A DNA stretch of 33,295 bases from Muribaculaceae bacterium (GTDB lineage Bacteria > Bacteroidota > Bacteroidia > Bacteroidales > Muribaculaceae): assembly GCA_016281825.1 (NCBI GenBank), contig JAEEJI010000082.1, forward strand, positions 1-33,295, in the 5' to 3' direction. How positions within the stretch are numbered: position 1 is the first letter of the stretch; each line of letters starts with the position of its first letter. Below, one piece after another: positions 1,866-32,363 of the stretch. The notes beneath the pieces were generated by a model, which was not told the DNA's origin, searched no databases, and saw only the letters and a list, made by a program, of their open reading frames with translations. A program made the position numbers and the translations under genes.

Positions 1866-3185
1866 TTATAATTTTAGTTGTTGCCAGAAGTGGGGGTAGC
1901 TTTTGGTGACGACCTGGGGGGTGGCGATGGCGAGGCCTGGGTGGCGGACAGAGGCGAGTGCCATCGCCATGGCGATGCGGTGGTCGCCGTGCGGGTCGAT
2001 GACGGGATGCTCCTGTGGAGGGCAGGTGGCGAAGTGCCAACTGACGGCATCGTCCCCCTCGATGGTGAGGATGTAGCCCAACTTGCGCAGCTCGGTGCGC
2101 AGTGCCTCCAGGCGGTCACTTTCTTTGTGGCGCAAGGTGCGCAGTCCCGTGATGCGGAAGGGACGCCCCAAAAGGCACAACATTACTATGAGTACGGGTG
2201 CCAGGTCGGGCGTGCCTGTCAGGTCGGCGAATGTCGAGCAACAGCAACAGTCGGCACGCGACATGTCCACGGTCAATGAGCCGTCGTCATGCCAGTGGGA
2301 TACCATGCCCATCTGCTCCATGATGGTGAATACGCGCCGGTCACCCTGCACGCTCTCGGAGCGGAGTCCGTTGAGCGTGATGCGCGCATCGGGGAGCAAG
2401 GCCTGCAATGCGATCCAAAATGCCGCAGCACTCCAGTCGCCCTCGTCGCAGGACGGTGCGGGCAGGTAGCGGTCGGCGGGGACGGTGAATGTGCCGTCGC
2501 TCTCCCCCACCCTCACGCCATGGCGCTCCATCAGCGCGATGGTCATGTCGATGTAGGGTCGCGAGACAATGTCGCCTGTCAGTTCCAGTTCGAGTCCGCC
2601 GATAGCCGGTCCTATCATCAGCAGCGCCGAGACGAACTGCGAGCTCACATCGCCCCGCATGGTCAGATGCCTGCCATGCAGTTGGCGGCCCATGATGCGC
2701 AAGGGTGCGTGTCCTGGCTGGTCTAGATAGTGGATGTCGGCTCCTAGTTGCCGCAAGGCATCGACCAGGGGTGCGATGGGCCGCTCACACAGGCGGTGGT
2801 TGCCCGTGATGGTGACGGTGCGTCCCTCTTGCGTGGCCCAGTAGGCGGTGAGGAAGCGTAATGCCGTGCCCGCTCCGTCCACATCGATGGTGTCGCCGTC
2901 ATGCGCTTCCAGGCCGCGCTGCATCATGAGGATGTCGTCGCACAATTGAGAATTGAGACCGCGCTTCGCGCTGGTAGAACGCTGCGCTGGTAGACCATTG
3001 CATTGGGAGACCGCGCTTCGCGCTGGTAGACCGCCCTGCGGGCTATTAGACCATTTCATTGGTAGAGCGCCTGCGGCTGGTAGACATTGTGCATTGATTA
3101 AGAGCTCGCGGTTGGCGATACTTTTGCTGGGCGGGAGGGTCACCGTGGCTGTAAAATTGGGGTTTATAGTGATGCTTGTCATCAT
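1866..3185 (-). CDS. aroA: 3-phosphoshikimate 1-carboxyvinyltransferase (EPSP synthase) with an in-frame repeat insert
   Basis: 439-residue EPSP synthase; joins shikimate-3-phosphate and phosphoenolpyruvate in the shikimate pathway. Active-site blocks are present: LPPSKSIANR (Lys21, Ser22, Arg26), DGAGTALRFL, ERPIAPLVDAL, SSQFVSALLM, RHKESDRL, HGDHRIAMAMALA and the C-terminal KSYPHFW. The oddity lies between LLINA and LCDDILMMQRGLE (residues about 33-80). Homologues have roughly a dozen residues there (for example AHGKTVLTNLL in E. coli). Here there are 48 Pro/Ala/Arg/Ser/Gln-rich residues encoded by tandem palindromic repeats, without a stop or frameshift. The site is a surface loop after the first helix, so the enzyme may still fold. 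An ATG is also available one codon in. The TACCTTTG promoter at 3203 is 18 bases upstream. Annotation is secure; activity is not proven by sequence. Confidence 0.93.
   Translation of the reverse strand: MMTSITINPNFTATVTLPPSKSIANRELLINAQCLPAAGALPMKWSNSPQGGLPARSAVSQCNGLPAQRSTSAKRGLNSQLCDDILMMQRGLEAHDGDTIDVDGAGTALRFLTAYWATQEGRTVTITGNHRLCERPIAPLVDALRQLGADIHYLDQPGHAPLRIMGRQLHGRHLTMRGDVSSQFVSALLMIGPAIGGLELELTGDIVSRPYIDMTIALMERHGVRVGESDGTFTVPADRYLPAPSCDEGDWSAAAFWIALQALLPDARITLNGLRSESVQGDRRVFTIMEQMGMVSHWHDDGSLTVDMSRADCCCCSTFADLTGTPDLAPVLIVMLCLLGRPFRITGLRTLRHKESDRLEALRTELRKLGYILTIEGDDAVSWHFATCPPQEHPVIDPHGDHRIAMAMALASVRHPGLAIATPQVVTKSYPHFWQQLKL
2944..3102. repeat. Tandem micro-palindrome repeat array inside aroA
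   Basis: Plus-strand order: an AATTGAGAATTGAGA leader, then seven short palindromic cores joined by the linker GGTAGACC or close variants, then ATTGTGCATTGATTAAG. Cores include GCGCTTCGCGC, GCTGCGC, ATTGCATT, GCCCTGCGGGC, ATTTCATT and GCCTGCGGC, mostly with a TTC or TGC loop. The leader matches the AATTGAGAATGGAG family found elsewhere in the window. The tail matches the TGCATTGTGCATT family at 30530. A shorter relative lies at 8787-8872. All of it is translated within aroA. Confidence 0.9.
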
Positions 3186-6478: not shown

Positions 6479-6551
6479 CTGCTTTTTTTGCAACTGACCA
6501 ACAAATGTCAAAAAAAAATGGTAAAAATTTTGTTTTGACACAAAAATGACT

Positions 6552-6559
6552 TACCTTTG
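6552..6559 (+). promoter_or_regulatory. Bacteroidota promoter (TACCTTTG) for the GYF/CD225 gene
   Basis: TACCTTTG at 6552-6559 with TTTTG at 6533-6537 as the -33 element. Transcription would start near 6566. That excludes the in-frame ATG at 6546 and supports the start at 6585. Confidence 0.75.
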
Positions 6560-6584
6560 TGGCAATGTTAAATATGTGTACACA

Positions 6585-7157
6585 ATGAGCGACAAGATTC
6601 AATATTGGATTAACCAGGACGGTGAGCAAACGGGTCCGCTCACCCTTGACCAACTGGAGTTGATGACTCTGAACGAGAAGACCTACGTGTGGAGTGCCGG
6701 TTTTGATGACTGGAAACCGATAGGCGAGGTGTCGGAACTGTCTCACCTGATGCCACGCACCGCCAGTGTTCCGCCATTGGTTCCCGATTCAGATACGGAC
6801 GCGCCAGCGAACCCCGCGATGAGCGCACCCAGTCAGTTGGGCATCGACGAGCCCGTGATGGCGCAACAATTACCGTCTGGCAGCCAAGCCTCTCAGCAGG
6901 CAGGCCAGCCCTATCCCCAATGCCCTCCGACCAACATGGTGTGGGCCATTATCAGCACGTTGCTGTGCTGCATCCCGTTGGGTATCGTTGCCATTTATTA
7001 TTCTAATAAGGTGTCGAAGAAATATTATGAGGGTGATCTTGCCGCCGCCGAGCACTATAGCGAGGTGAGTGCCTGGTGGTGCATCGGCACCATCGTTGCC
7101 GGTCTCGCCCTGCAACCTCTGGTGTCGCTCGTCCAGATGATGATTATGGGCAGCTGA
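6585..7157 (+). CDS. GYF_2 (DUF4339) plus CD225/dispanin-like membrane protein
   Basis: 190 residues from the chosen ATG at 6585, placed after the promoter at 6552. The N-terminal domain (about residues 5-56) is a GYF_2/DUF4339 module: YWINQDGEQTGPLTLDQLE, YVWSAGFDDWKPIGEV. A Pro/Ser/Gln-rich linker (about 57-115) follows. The C-terminal part is CD225/dispanin-like: MVWAIISTLLCCIPLGIVAI, an IYYSNKVSKKYYEGD loop, then a second hydrophobic segment. The expected topology is two membrane helices with the GYF domain in the cytosol, perhaps as a proline-peptide binding module. It converges on the DUF2752 gene, a frequent neighbour of CD225 and TM2 proteins in Bacteroidota. Specific function unknown. 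Confidence 0.85.
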   Translation: MSDKIQYWINQDGEQTGPLTLDQLELMTLNEKTYVWSAGFDDWKPIGEVSELSHLMPRTASVPPLVPDSDTDAPANPAMSAPSQLGIDEPVMAQQLPSGSQASQQAGQPYPQCPPTNMVWAIISTLLCCIPLGIVAIYYSNKVSKKYYEGDLAAAEHYSEVSAWWCIGTIVAGLALQPLVSLVQMMIMGS

Positions 7158-7184
7158 TAGCATCCAACAGACAAACGAAAACGG

Positions 7185-7218
7185 CAAAAATCGTTCACTT
7201 CGAAGTGAACGATTTTTG
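7185..7218. terminator. Perfect bidirectional terminator between convergent genes
   Basis: A 34-base perfect palindrome with arms CAAAAATCGTTCACTTC and its complement. The A-rich start and T-rich end mirror each other, so both strands give a stem ending in a U-rich run. It lies between the stops of the GYF/CD225 gene (7157) and the DUF2752 gene (7229). Confidence 0.9.
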
Positions 7219-7228
7219 CTGTTATTTT

Positions 7229-8786: not shown

Positions 8787-8872
8787 TTTTTTAATTGAGA
8801 ATGGAGAATGGAGATCGCGCTGCGCGCTGGTAGACCATTTTATTGGTAGACCGCCTGCGGCTGGTAGAACGC
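8787..8872. repeat. Micro-palindrome repeat between lemA and the TPM gene
   Basis: The whole 87-bp gap except one base is repeat. It opens with TTTTTTAATTGAGAATGGAG, continues with palindromic cores GCGCTGCGCGC, ATTTTATT and GCCTGCGGC joined by GGTAGACC, and ends in AGAACGC directly against the lemA stop. It has the same orientation and linker as the array in aroA (2944-3102). Confidence 0.88.
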
Positions 8873-14427: not shown

Positions 14428-14474
14428 ATATATTTTATTGAGAATTGAAAATTGAGAATTGAAAATTGAGAATG

Positions 14475-14617
14475 GAGAATGGAGAATTGAGAATTAAGAA
14501 TTGAGTCCTTCCCTTGAACAAGAAACTGCGCCAATACATCATTGAAAAGTAAGATTGTTTTAGGCTTGTTTCATTAATGCCATGGAATGTTTTTTTTCAA
14601 AACGAACACCAGGAGGC
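14475..14617. repeat. Direct repeat copy 1 (143 bp) flanking the restriction-modification genes
   Basis: Matches 17999-18141 in the same orientation with five differences in 143 positions; the first 93 bases are identical. It starts in the GAGAATGGAGAATTGAGAAT tract and ends at CACCAGGAGGC, which here forms the left arm of the terminator hairpin. The two copies bracket the restriction-modification operon with a 3,524-bp offset. Confidence 0.95.
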
Positions 14618-17995: not shown

Positions 17996-17998
17996 ATT

Positions 17999-18141
17999 GA
18001 GAATGGAGAATTGAGAATTAAGAATTGAGTCCTTCCCTTGAACAAGAAACTGCGCCAATACATCATTGAAAAGTAAGATTGTTTTAGGCTTTTTTCATTA
18101 ATGCCATGGAATGGGTTTTATCAAAACAAACACCAGGAGGC
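17999..18141. repeat. Direct repeat copy 2 (143 bp) flanking the restriction-modification genes
   Basis: Same orientation as 14475-14617, five mismatches, four of them in the last third. After the shared CACCAGGAGGC end, this copy continues into unrelated sequence (AGTTTTGTGTAG) instead of completing a hairpin. Confidence 0.95.
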
Positions 18142-23864: not shown

Positions 23865-26800
23865 CTACGGCTTGCCGCTGCCGTCGGGATTGTCGGTGAG
23901 ATCGGGCTTGTCGTTGCCCGAGTTGTCTGGCTTATCGTTGCTGCCGGTGGCAGGAGCATTGCCGTTGTTGTCAACGCTTGACTTGCCCGTCGTGGACTTG
24001 CCGCTGGCTTTGCCGTCCTTGGTGTTGTTGCGGCTGGACCGGCCCGTAGTGGCATTGGTGCCGCCACTGCTCTTGCCTCCCTTTGCGGCCTTGCGCTCGG
24101 CGGCCTGTTGCTTGCGTTCTTCCTCACGTTGCTTCTGCCGTTCCTTGTTAGCCTTTTCGCGGTCCTTCTGCTGCTGTTTGCGCAACTTCTGCTGCTCCTT
24201 GCGTTTCGCCTCGCGTTCCTTCATGCGCTCTTTGCGCTCTTTCTCCTTCAGCTTGCGCTCTTTCTCCTTGGCCTTCAAGCGCTCCTTGCGTGCCTTTTCG
24301 GCATCCTTCTTGGCCTGTTCGCGCTCTTTCTGCTTGTTCTTGATCTCGTCGGCCTTGGCCTTCTGCAATGCCTCGATGGAGTCTTCCTTGGCCTCGCGCG
24401 CGCTCTTATAGAGCTTCTCGCGGTTCTCCTCGGCACGCAGCAGCGAGTCTTGGCGCATGCGTTCAGCACGTTTTTCAGCTTTCTCGCGCTCCTTCTGCTC
24501 TTTCTTCAAAGCCTTTTCACGCTCTTTCTCTTCTTTCTCGAGCTGCTTAGCACGTTCCTTCTCGGCCTTGTCAAGAGCCTTTAGGCGTTCACGCTCGGCC
24601 TTTTCCTGAGCTTTCTTGTCCTGCTTGGGGGAAGCGGTTACTTGACTCGTGTCGCTCTTCTTGTCGCGCACACTGCGAGTACCGAGCTTCTCAGCCTCAG
24701 TCTTTTCAGTCTTCTCGCTCGATGTGGGCTCATCGGGCTTCATTGCAGGCTCGTCGGGCTTCATCGCGGGCTCGTCGGGCTTCATCGCGGGCTCATCGGG
24801 CTTCATTGCAGGCTCGTCGGGCTTCATCGCAGGCTCGTCGGGCTTCATCGCGGGCTCGTCGGGCTTCATTGCAGGCTCGTCGGGCTTCATCGCGGGCTCG
24901 TCGGGCTTCATCGCAGGCTCATCGGGCTTCATCGCGGGCTCGTCGGGCTTCATCGCGGGCTTTTCAGGATTCTCAGCTTGCTGCATCCTCTTCTCCCGCT
25001 CTTCAGCATCTCTGCGTTCCCGCTCTTCTTTCTCCCGCATTTCTTGCTCTTTGCGCTCCTGCTCTTTCTTTTCAAGCAGTTCCTGGTCAAGTTTGGCGGC
25101 TCGCTCCAGTTCTTCCTGACGCTGGCGGCGCATTTGCTCAAGGCGCTCCTGCTCAGCCTGCTCTTCCTTCTCCTTCTTTTCGCGCTCAAGCTGGGCAAGG
25201 CGCTCCCTCTCGGCTTGTTGCAACTGTGCTTGCAGTTGCTTCTCGGCTTCGGTGAGCAGCGATACGGTGTCGGTGATTTGGGTCAGGTTGGTCTGCAGTG
25301 AGTCAGTAGGCTGGCTCATAGCTTTCTGCAACGAGTCAATGGGTTGGCTCTTGCTCAAGTCGAGCGAGTCGATGGGCTGGACCATCGTGGAGTCGGACAA
25401 TTGTTCTTTCTTGTCATCGTCCTTCTTACCCTTCTTATCCTTGACGCTTCTCTTCTTGCCGTCAGGTTCATCTTGATTATCGTCCGACGATGTCTTCTTG
25501 TCGCCTTTCTTGATTTTCTCGGCCTTCGCCTCTTCCTGTTCCTGCAGGTAGTTGAAGTAATCTTCAAAGGTGCGGCCCTCGTTCAGCAGTAGCTGGAAGT
25601 TGCTTTCGCTGATGAGCACCTGATGTACTTGTGGCGGAATCTGCATCGACGTGTCGGCATCGAAGACCTTGCGGTAGTGCGATACCTCGTTGAAGTTCTC
25701 AAATCCCTTCACGACCAGCAGGCCCAGATGACCGAAGTTCATCTGCTCCAGGTCGTAGTCCTTGACGACGAACGAGTTAAAGTTGTGGCGTGCCACCTCG
25801 TAGAGCAGCAAGCGCGAGCTCACCGTGTCGGTGGGATATAGCAGGATGAAGACCTGCGGTTTGTCGTTGTCTTCCTTGAACGGCGTGAACTTGCCCTCAA
25901 GTGCCTGTGGCGTGGTGTCGTTGCTCAAGCGTGTGCTCCATAGCATACCACGGGCATTGCTGCCGCCACCCTCAAGCTTGCGACCAGCGTTCAGATGCTT
26001 GACGATGCCACTGGCGGTCGGGGTGATGTCGGTCTCGGGGTAACGCTGGAGCATGTCCTTGAGGGTCTCCTTGAACTTGTCATAGTTGCGCTGTGTGACG
26101 TATGACAACGCGTCGATGAACATGAACTTGGGCATAATCTTGGACAAGGGGTACTTGCGCATCATCTCAGCATACGCCTCATGCACCGCCTCGTTGTTGT
26201 CGTTGAGGTAGTTGGCGTAGGCTTCGGCGTACATCCGCTCCTGCTCGATGTTCATCCGCTTCAAGTTCTCGATATAGTTCGGGTCAAGCAATGCCTTGCC
26301 TTCCTTGGAGTCGGCAAAGTCGCTCAAAATCATGTTGCGGTACACCGCAGCACGGTTCACCGAACCCTCACGCATGTACATCAAGTACATGTTGTAATAG
26401 GTGTCCAGGCGATAGGTGTTGTCGGGATAGTCGGTGAGCAGACGAGTGAACTGTACGGCAGCAGCCTCGTAGTCCTCGAGTTTGTCCTTGAGGATGACAC
26501 CCATGTTGTACAGACCCTCTTGGATAATCTCGTGGGCGGCCTGGATTTGCTCCTCGGTCTTGGGAATCTGCTTGAGGTAGTACTCCTCGTAGTGCGGGTC
26601 TTCGGCACGACGCAGCGCAGCAGTGTCGATGGGTATCGAATCGTTGCCCAACGAGTCGACCATCGCCTGCAGCGTGGAGTCGCTCAACGTCGAACCGCCG
26701 TCCAGCGAGAACACCTGTTTGTTGCGTCGACGCCAGTTGTCCTCAAGCTTGCGGTTGCCCCAACGCTGCTGGAACTGCGTCTTGCCGGCGTTCTTGGTCT

Positions 26801-28292
26801 GCGTGTTATAGAAGTACCAAGACTTGTCGTTGTTCATCGAGAACTGTTGCGGAGCATTCTTGTTTTGCTGCTGCGTGTTGCCCTTGGCTGCCTGGTCGGC
26901 GAGGTAGCTCTCGCGGTCGGCATTCTCACGCTCCTCTTTCTCTTTTTTCTTCAGCTCGTCAATGATTTTCTTGATGACTGCCTTGACCTCGGTGTCGCTC
27001 ATCTTCGACAATTTGAGCAAAGAGTCCTGCAAAGTCACGTTGCCGGCATACACCGCCAACTCGTCAAGCACGTCGCTGCGCTGTTTCAGAGCTTTGTAGT
27101 TGGGGTAGTCCTCGCTGAGTTGCGGGACGGCCTCGGCATAGCACGGCTGTGCCTTGTCATACTTGTGCTGGGCAAAGTAGATGCCGCCCAACTTGAGTTG
27201 GCTGATGGCCTTGTCAATGCCGTTGCGTGTGCTCTTCTCGGCGGCAAGAACGTAGTTCTCGACCGCATGCACGGTGTCCTCACGAGACAGGTACAGGTTG
27301 CCGATGGCGTAGTAAATTTGGTCAAGGTATTCCTTGTTGCGGTCGTAGCGCGTCATGTGCTTGAGCGCGCGCACCTCCCCGGCAATGTCATAGCCTTGAT
27401 AGACCGCGCTCTGCTTGATGCGGGCGTTGAACTTGGTGCGGTAGCTCGCACTGTTACTGCTGCCAGCGCGCTTGAAAGCCTCATACGCCATGTCTTTCTG
27501 ATCGAGCTCTTCATAGAGCTGGCCCAACAAGAAGTTCTGTCGAACCTTCTGCGAACCTTTGGCTCCCTTCACTGCCTCGGCAAGGTAAGGCACAGCAAGC
27601 GCGGTGCGCTTCTCCTTGATGTAATAGTCGGCAAACGCCAGGTTGGCAAGCGAGCGAACGCGCTTGTTGTTGATTTTGTCCAGATGGACGTGCGAGAGCA
27701 CGTTGTCGGCCTCGCTGGTCCACCCCATAGCGCAGTAGCTCAACGCCTCCCACACCTTCGCCTCTTCGACGAGGTCGGGTTTCCAACTGAAGTGGCGGCT
27801 GATGTATCGGAATGTCGCCGACGCGTTCAGGAAGTCGCCCTTCATGTATTGTGCCAGTGCCAAAGTGTACCAACAGTTGTGCATGAATGGGTTATATTCC
27901 TCGCGGGCCATCCACGCCTTGTACTTGGGGTCGTTCCCCTTGCCGCTCTTTTTGTTGGGTTTCTTCTTGATGGAATGCAGCGCGATGGCCTTCTGCATCT
28001 TCTCAATGGTACGGTCAAAACTGCCGCTAGGCTGAGGTGCCTTGGGGTTGGCGCGGGCCTCGGCGGGATGAACAAACAGGCGCTGCGAGTAATCATCCTG
28101 ATAGTTGTCAAGCATCTCCTTGAGCTGCTCATCATAGTTGGTGCGCCCGTGGTAATACACGTTGTAGCGCGTGTTCAGCGATTGCCAAAAACGCGATCCG
28201 GCAGTGTTCTTCTTATTGCTGCAAGCGCCAAAAAACACCGCCAGTGCCACAACCAGCACAAGCTCAATCAGATGTCTTGTATGTCGGTTCAT
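23865..28292 (-). CDS. porW: PorW/SprE-family T9SS lipoprotein with long charged, repetitive tail
   Basis: 1,475 residues. A lipoprotein signal ends FGAC with Cys24. The N-terminal ~900 residues are the PorW/SprE TPR region: RFWQSLNTRYNVYYHGRTNYDEQLKEM, LALAQYMKGDFLNASATFRYISRHF, YNMYLMYMREGSVNRAAVY, and the conserved C-terminal core HNFNSFVVKDYDLEQMNFG ... GLLVVKGFENFNEVSHYRK. PorW/SprE is an outer-membrane-associated T9SS component needed for export and gliding. As I recall, homologues are often about 600-900 residues. Here residues from about 930 add Lys/Glu/Arg-rich coiled-coil sequence, eleven AMKPDEP repeats (about 1111-1188), a second K/E/R-rich helix and a Gly/Ser/Asn tail. The tail may be a rigid periplasmic spacer. 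Same strand as the small Cys-rich gene 28 bases upstream. Confidence 0.9.
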   Translation of the reverse strand: MNRHTRHLIELVLVVALAVFFGACSNKKNTAGSRFWQSLNTRYNVYYHGRTNYDEQLKEMLDNYQDDYSQRLFVHPAEARANPKAPQPSGSFDRTIEKMQKAIALHSIKKKPNKKSGKGNDPKYKAWMAREEYNPFMHNCWYTLALAQYMKGDFLNASATFRYISRHFSWKPDLVEEAKVWEALSYCAMGWTSEADNVLSHVHLDKINNKRVRSLANLAFADYYIKEKRTALAVPYLAEAVKGAKGSQKVRQNFLLGQLYEELDQKDMAYEAFKRAGSSNSASYRTKFNARIKQSAVYQGYDIAGEVRALKHMTRYDRNKEYLDQIYYAIGNLYLSREDTVHAVENYVLAAEKSTRNGIDKAISQLKLGGIYFAQHKYDKAQPCYAEAVPQLSEDYPNYKALKQRSDVLDELAVYAGNVTLQDSLLKLSKMSDTEVKAVIKKIIDELKKKEKEERENADRESYLADQAAKGNTQQQNKNAPQQFSMNNDKSWYFYNTQTKNAGKTQFQQRWGNRKLEDNWRRRNKQVFSLDGGSTLSDSTLQAMVDSLGNDSIPIDTAALRRAEDPHYEEYYLKQIPKTEEQIQAAHEIIQEGLYNMGVILKDKLEDYEAAAVQFTRLLTDYPDNTYRLDTYYNMYLMYMREGSVNRAAVYRNMILSDFADSKEGKALLDPNYIENLKRMNIEQERMYAEAYANYLNDNNEAVHEAYAEMMRKYPLSKIMPKFMFIDALSYVTQRNYDKFKETLKDMLQRYPETDITPTASGIVKHLNAGRKLEGGGSNARGMLWSTRLSNDTTPQALEGKFTPFKEDNDKPQVFILLYPTDTVSSRLLLYEVARHNFNSFVVKDYDLEQMNFGHLGLLVVKGFENFNEVSHYRKVFDADTSMQIPPQVHQVLISESNFQLLLNEGRTFEDYFNYLQEQEEAKAEKIKKGDKKTSSDDNQDEPDGKKRSVKDKKGKKDDDKKEQLSDSTMVQPIDSLDLSKSQPIDSLQKAMSQPTDSLQTNLTQITDTVSLLTEAEKQLQAQLQQAERERLAQLEREKKEKEEQAEQERLEQMRRQRQEELERAAKLDQELLEKKEQERKEQEMREKEERERRDAEEREKRMQQAENPEKPAMKPDEPAMKPDEPAMKPDEPAMKPDEPAMKPDEPAMKPDEPAMKPDEPAMKPDEPAMKPDEPAMKPDEPAMKPDEPTSSEKTEKTEAEKLGTRSVRDKKSDTSQVTASPKQDKKAQEKAERERLKALDKAEKERAKQLEKEEKEREKALKKEQKEREKAEKRAERMRQDSLLRAEENREKLYKSAREAKEDSIEALQKAKADEIKNKQKEREQAKKDAEKARKERLKAKEKERKLKEKERKERMKEREAKRKEQQKLRKQQQKDREKANKERQKQREEERKQQAAERKAAKGGKSSGGTNATTGRSSRNNTKDGKASGKSTTGKSSVDNNGNAPATGSNDKPDNSGNDKPDLTDNPDGSGKP
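24729..24960. repeat. Eleven tandem 21-bp units encoding AMKPDEP in porW
   Basis: The plus strand shows eleven GGCTTCAT-containing 21-bp units differing only at third positions (CAT-TGC or CAT-CGC, GCAGG or GCGGG, TCATC or TCGTC). All encode the heptapeptide AMKPDEP on the minus strand. Silent drift with a constant peptide implies selection on the protein. Unit length is a multiple of three, so copy-number change would keep the frame. Confidence 0.97.
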
Positions 28293-32147: not shown

Positions 32148-32363
32148 AGCCCCGTCAGGGGCGAGGGTCTAGGCAGGGGTGAAGCGTAGCGCAACCCCTG
32201 CTACAAAATCACGCCAACCAACCAAGCCCCATCGGGGCGGCAGATGTATGCAACATGGCGTTGTTCTGCCGCCCCTGACGGGGCTTGATACCTTTATCGG
32301 TCAATCGACAGGGGTTTCGCTGCGCTTCACCCCTGCCTAGACCCTTGTCGCTCCTAACGGAGC
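32148..32363. repeat. Nested inverted-repeat element
   Basis: Outer arms 32148-32200 and 32308-32363 are inverted relatives. Both contain GGGTCTAGGCAGGGGTGAAG followed by GCGnAGCGnAACCCCTG, read on opposite strands, and each arm ends in a small hairpin (AGCCCCGTCAGGGGC / AGCTCCGTTAGGAGC). Inside sits a second inverted repeat, AAGCCCC..GGGGCGGCAG (32224-32243) with CTGCCGCCCC..GGGGCTT (32266-32286). No open reading frame of note. It looks like a non-autonomous dispersed element, and may also terminate the minus-strand gene that ends 5 bases away. Confidence 0.75.

Follow-up and report, generated by a model that had tools for sequence, protein, structure and literature searches.

The aroA gene of a Muribaculaceae bacterium (GenBank assembly GCA_016281825.1, contig JAEEJI010000082.1) contains, within its reading frame, seven short hairpin units chained head to tail. 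The window, i.e., the whole stretch of 33,295 nt analyzed here, corresponds to contig C123 in a draft genome of 2.83 Mb (G000; 281 contigs, 83% complete). Taking identity, frame and tolerance together, we consider it very probable that the insert is a clade-specific array of the repetitive extragenic palindromic (REP) type, marked by GTAG, that is read in frame and tolerated by the enzyme. That the insert is a REP-like GTAG array we hold with high confidence, and the peptide it encodes is probably tolerated without having a function; the insertion was most likely selfish or neutral. In AroA, the native loop that leads from helix 1 to the DD motif appears to have been replaced by the array and its heptamer flanks. 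The features concerned are the following.

1866-3185, minus strand: aroA, EPSP synthase (3-phosphoshikimate 1-carboxyvinyltransferase), 439 aa, with the hairpin array in frame.
2944-2957, plus strand: leader AATTGAGAATTGAG, two AATTGAG heptamers, of a repeat family (D2) that is dispersed in the window.
2958-3083, plus strand: seven GTAG-tagged hairpin units arrayed head to tail, 126 nt, read on the minus strand as AroA residues 35-76.
2958-2977, 2978-2993, 2994-3009 and 3010-3029, plus strand: units 1-4 (20, 16, 16 and 20 nt).
3030-3049, 3050-3065 and 3066-3083, plus strand: units 5-7 (20, 16 and 18 nt).
3085-3097, plus strand: tail CATTGTGCATTGA, which matches a high-copy heptamer repeat and overlaps native INAQ codons.
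8814-8867, plus strand: second array of the GTAG family, three units, between genes.

The first-pass annotation of this DNA had described seven micro-palindromes joined by one linker. The seven units are real, but the exact linker GGTAGACC is present at only two of the six junctions, the remainder reading GGTAGAAC, GGGAGACC, ATTAGACC and GGTAGAGC. Leader and tail had both been matched to dispersed repeats. For the leader this holds, and leader-like sequence precedes 16 of the 29 chains in G000. The tail heptamer has 174 pattern matches in G000 (overlaps counted) against none for the reversed control; however, its origin is ambiguous because the genome of a sister species, G028, carries CATTGTGCATT at this junction without an array, and part of the tail may be native codons. 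The claim that the array is translated inside aroA without a stop or frameshift stands: the 16-, 18- and 20-nt units displace the frame relative to each other, and their total is divisible by three, giving exactly 42 codons, a stretch that includes SAVSQCNGLPAQR. The added peptide, on the other hand, was thought to extend a loop, whereas the native loop has largely been replaced; the gap between the LLI and DDI motifs in this AroA is 52 codons.

Each unit consists of ACC, one arm of a 2-4 bp stem, a 3-nt loop, the second arm, a bulged T and GGT, followed by AG. Neighboring units share GTAG, hence the head-to-tail chaining. With the ACC/GGT pairs the stem comes to 5-7 bp, and the inner stem is fully paired in 80 of 87 strict units, whose period is 16 nt in 49, 18 nt in 12 and 20 nt in 26 (longer if the shared GTAG is counted). 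In these 87 units 231 of 238 inner stem pairs form, whereas 5000 trials with reshuffled right arms average 163 and never exceed 189; when each distinct core is counted once, 77 of 84 pairs form (shuffle mean 55, maximum 70). This shuffle is not a clean significance test, because the units are related to each other. Nevertheless, the divergent stems AT/AT, GC/GC, GT/AC, GCCC/GGGC and GTCC/GGAC all pair. At the 3' end GTAG follows the last hairpin in 48 of 53 chains, while the first hairpin is preceded by NNAG in 49 of 53 and by GTAG in 8 of 53. From these ends we infer that the unit is a hairpin plus GTAG placed 3' of AG. All 55 clusters of at least two units have a single orientation, and none contains an inverted unit. 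At the Rfam gathering score the window yields two tRNAs only, and the array matches no known RNA family.

In enterobacteria, bacterial interspersed mosaic elements (BIMEs) are built of REP units in alternating orientation, whereas both orientations occur in none of the 55 clusters described here. The clusters of REP units in BIMEs, like the arrays, mix several unit subtypes; BIMEs are also named in PMC3733652. The unit resembles the GTAG REP families described by Di Nocera et al. (2013, PMC3733652). Their palindromes end on one side in an unpaired GTAG (here in the 48 chains noted above), and they have a stem of 5-13 bp and a loop of 2-20 nt, ranges that include the values found here, and many copies that are mostly extragenic, with some in frame, including in repair genes. 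Possible differences are in unit length, 20-40 bp in those families and here 16-20 nt per period, bulged T included (longer with the shared GTAG), and in the association with genes for REP-associated tyrosine transposases (RAYTs), no array having been found beside the 14 of 19 Y1 loci that we inspected in incomplete genomes. Rickettsia palindromic elements, as described in the same paper, likewise are in-frame palindromic inserts in protein genes, as the arrays are in aroA and an addB-like gene; those of R. conorii are described as carrying CGTC instead of GTAG.

According to PMC3733652, REP elements lie in frame inside genes of several phyla, often repair genes; in Thauera and R. conorii, clusters of such elements encode 43-82 aa. 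Invasion in frame therefore is a known kind of event. The GTAG families listed there come from Proteobacteria, Cyanobacteria, Chloroflexi and the PVC group, and for Bacteroidetes the list has only CGTC repeats. REP-associated Y1 transposases do occur in Bacteroidetes, with subclasses 2.4 and 2.6 bearing REPs (PMC6006769), and RepRanger names Bacteroidota genomes with predicted REPs (PMC12306157). Among the open-licence papers listed in our searches, none was on GTAG repeats or on in-frame REP elements in Bacteroidales, nor on a recurrent site in aroA. Three things are apparently new: a GTAG family that in the clusters examined is built only head to tail and for which no cognate transposase was found, the further in-frame array of an addB-like gene, and the recurrence of repeats at one aroA site.

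AroA with its insert retains the features of an EPSP synthase in profile, fold and conserved residues. Pfam PF00275 matches with an E-value of 1.1e-68, starting only at residue 93, and all columns that are invariant in 47 AroA sequences are retained. In the AlphaFold prediction the array-encoded loop is disordered and the EPSP synthase fold intact, in agreement with the earlier proposal of a loop insertion into an otherwise intact enzyme. In the model, helix 1 passes to the DD helix without the intervening strand that EPSP synthases usually have, and the TIGR01356 (aroA) score of 277.9 bits is slightly below the curated cut-off of 287.25. Annotation may be affected by this, as the protein falls just short of the aroA equivalog threshold while still being found by Pfam. 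One could take the missing strand and the low score as signs of a gene turning into a pseudogene. However, the frame has neither stop nor frameshift across its 439 aa, the conserved columns and the modeled fold are preserved, and no further AroA is present in this draft, 83% complete as it is. A dN/dS ratio (nonsynonymous to synonymous divergence) of 0.106 also argues against decay, although it chiefly reflects the time before the insertion and the dS of 1.19 is near saturation. We consider decay of the gene very unlikely.

A short loop in relatives had been proposed as a check, and in most of them the loop is short. Of 92 AroA sequences measured, mainly from the genus with a few from the order, 82 have 48-52 residues between the SKS and GTxxRF motifs; in 9 of 101 AroA frames the motif was not found, L224 yielded no frame, and the value first read for L058 was wrong (51 when its second SKS motif is used). 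In the clade around G000 the distances are 86 (G000), 83 (G028), 55 (G008 and G034) and 53 (G074 and G066), and the GTAG array is missing at the aroA loop from all relatives examined. The sister species nevertheless have repeats of their own at this position. The 147-nt loop of G028 contains a copy of a high-copy palindrome (CCCCTC/GAGGGG) with 58 pattern matches in G028, 63 in G000 and none for the reversed pattern. The loops of G008 and G034 contain TGCATTG-type heptamers, for which there are 194 and 78 pattern matches genome-wide (overlaps counted) and none reversed; these two cases are weaker than that of G028, because the loop matches are short (30 nt at 90% and 18 nt exact) and the motif partly coincides with native INAL/INAQ codons. 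In G074 the repeat nature of the loop comes down to a single 17-nt match, and the G066 loop gave no repeat match. The first-pass annotation had named unrelated long loops without a DNA-level repeat across the family as a finding that would count against it; in part this is what is seen, in G077 (distance 79, no repeat found).

Elsewhere in AroA, copies of a CCCCCTCTATC/TTAGAGGGGG palindrome are in frame in G093, G001 and G122, and the insert of G080, at another position, has one 18-nt repeat match only. Judged from the sequences, the AroA of this genus has acquired repeats several times, and its helix-1 loop is a meeting place of different families; repeats seem to have landed there recurrently and not by a one-off accident. 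A bolder version, which we regard as doubtful, is that the helix-1 loop might be a true landing pad, where up to three unrelated high-copy families (GTAG arrays, the CCCCTC/GAGGGG palindrome and TGCATTG heptamers) would have entered the same codons independently, seeded by native codons that resemble the heptamers, with GTAG arrays growing through a self-renewing target, as a unit placed 3' of AG itself ends in GTAG. Here a Bacteroidales lineage has had an enzyme of core metabolism remodeled by intergenic repeats, the sister species differing at the same codons, and these natural AroA variants make the gain of protein loops from non-coding repeats directly testable.

Could the added peptide, or a structure in the RNA, be useful by regulating or stabilizing AroA? 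The loop of this clade is variable and yet always in frame, as a selected function would have it; however, the inserts of the sister species are mutually unrelated in sequence, the peptide is predicted to be disordered, and the folding energy is ordinary. A useful insert is in our judgment quite unlikely. Two further AroA frames may be recorded here. In G091 (L175) aroA lies within an open frame of 876 aa; upstream of aroA this frame contains recurring SSPSKIEGAGG-like peptides that stem from a palindromic repeat. The AroA of a Prevotellaceae record (L314) has SPLKGEKLEASPLRGGLEG before its GTAMRF motif, which resembles another repeat-derived insert, outside the genus.

A search of G000 for linked palindromes inside other genes, suggested along with the first observation, turned up an addB-like frame with three complete units and a partial fourth, again in frame. 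The frame encodes a 1020-aa PD-(D/E)XK nuclease that is weakly AddB-like and scores far below the curated AddB cut-off. At the position of the array, a linker that is mostly acidic is found in ten relatives. The G000 protein shares 92% identity with its G079 counterpart, relative to which the net gain is 8 aa; here too, then, the array stands in place of native sequence. With this second case, the other repeats at the aroA site in sister species, and the REP elements inside genes described in PMC3733652, the aroA insert is not unique. The addB-like insert also bears on the possibility that a repeat-driven misjoin placed an intergenic array in aroA during assembly. The draft consists of 281 contigs and the repeat is high-copy, both of which would invite such an error. 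However, the array is just 126 nt long, the frame and the gene run on both sides of it within one 33-kb contig, the addB-like gene has the same kind of insert, and other repeats sit at the same codons in sister species; an artefact is thus extremely improbable. The genome G082 has a second addB-like gene (L317, contig C69) that is 93% identical to that of G000, its other copy being 43% identical; L317 is probably a contaminating contig.

The repeat family itself is narrowly distributed. A two-linker pattern (GGTAGACC-spacer-TGGTAGA) has 68 matches in G000 versus 2 for the reversed pattern, and the word GCTGGTAGACC occurs 51 times versus 7 for its reverse. The two-linker pattern is found in 7 of 101 genomes of the genus: G000 (68), G079 (34), G008 (11), G028 (7), and one match each in G034, G074 and G108, the G108 core not being palindromic. 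It is absent from G023 and from G066, and an 11-mer search gave three matches each in G023 and G043, near background (the reversed word reached up to 11, one strand). In a family-wide sample of 198 genomes, 182 of them from other genera, 5 of the 182 had one match each and none had more; only the match in G194 is foldable. The AroA tree groups G000, G008, G028, G034, G074 and G066 with a support of 0.905 (the G079 draft contains no AroA), and the repeat therefore belongs to one small clade. At least two deposited records, one under Muribaculaceae (RGIG8108, water buffalo rumen) and one under Prevotellaceae (RUG362), seem to be members of this genus. A viral source was considered and set aside: the pattern GGTAGACCNTTNNANTGGTAGA has no match in viral contigs, in a scan that covered this unit type only.

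At orthologous intergenic sites the number of units varies, the L012 array being shorter than that of G079 and the L033 array shorter than that of G008, while the L042 array is identical in G008. The earlier description of a mobile or expanding repeat is thus borne out as regards dispersal and variable unit number; it may be mobile, but no array-flanked transposase was found at the Y1 loci inspected. Gene context, judged from the length of open reading frames (ORFs) alone for the arrays retrieved (some arrays, e.g., in C38 and C268, were left out), shows 30 of 32 arrays to be extragenic and the other two to be in aroA and the addB-like gene. Two further clusters had counted as lying in genes. 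One, at L018:743-812, consists of GGTAG words that cluster by chance; the other, the array of L034, is close to the 5' end of a long frame that probably starts farther downstream. Both are still included in the open-frame counts given here. The 33 clusters comprise 15 that lie between co-directional genes and run antisense to them, 5 in sense, 5 between divergent and 4 between convergent genes, and 4 inside frames; the bias of 15 to 5 has a p of 0.04. Both in-gene arrays are antisense. Read in antisense, 32 of 33 clusters have at least one open frame, whereas 17 of 33 have none in the sense direction, where frames are often closed because each unit carries TAG. A filter for open frames could explain the antisense orientation of both in-gene copies; however, intergenic arrays likewise lean antisense.

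How the array entered aroA is a separate question from what it is. Arrays would grow via duplication in place, and one would have been copied into aroA, with loss of the native loop, when heptamer-like sequence served as an anchor for template switching or for recombination between repeats. This route, to which we give about an even chance, is suggested by the replacement seen in both genes and by the composite of leader, array and tail. The gene would have survived because the antisense reading of the array is nearly stop-free, because the seven units sum to a multiple of three, and because the loop tolerates a disordered peptide. An alternative to the copying route, though not to the identity of the array, is a mobilized REP, in which an IS200/IS605-like transposase (RAYT) inserts the unit 3' of AG; since the unit ends in GTAG, each insertion would create the next target and head-to-tail arrays would build up. 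The chain ends, with NNAG before 49 and GTAG after 48 of 53, are what such a process would leave, and Y1 transposases (PF01797) are common in the genus (54 of 61 genomes, four in G000). However, no Y1 locus that we examined has an array in its flanks, although drafts may lack the gene in question, and both in-gene cases replaced native sequence and were not clean insertions. Mobilization is possible, but we would not bet on it; repeat-anchored copying accommodates the replacement in both genes.

Several observations weigh against the interpretation of a tolerated REP-like array. Folded as a whole, the stretch has an unexceptional energy, with z-scores of -0.78 for RNA and -0.97 for DNA. No clean empty site was found, and thus we can only infer the exact inserted unit and the deletion. 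Among 19 Y1 matches in G000, G008, G028, G023 and G034, we read the flanks of 12 and checked 2 more loci for GGTAGA; none of these 14 is flanked by a GTAG array, although single words occur and the genomes are incomplete. To these add the reliance of gene context on ORF length and on the retrieved arrays, not all those of the genome, the limits of dN/dS mentioned above, and the draft state of the assembly.

Other repeats, by eye, do adjoin the Y1 loci. Three G000 Y1 proteins resemble, also by eye, the motif of subclass 1.2 in PMC6006769, and their flanks, again by eye, hold other repeats and no GTAG arrays. Within the window, an inverted repeat with 44-nt arms at 32157-32352 holds AGGGTCTAGGCAGGGGTG...CCCCTG; the same type adjoins the Y1 transposase of contig C177 of G000, and each Y1 type therefore may have its own dispersed repeat. 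The window further contains a tandem array with a 21-nt period (24663-25035) inside a 1475-aa frame at 23865-28292 on the minus strand, and a 146-nt direct repeat at 14472-14617 and 17996-18141, 3.5 kb apart and 96% identical. Finally, a 22-nt inverted repeat, 95% complementary and without spacer, lies at 7180-7223, directly after the ORF at 6546-7157.
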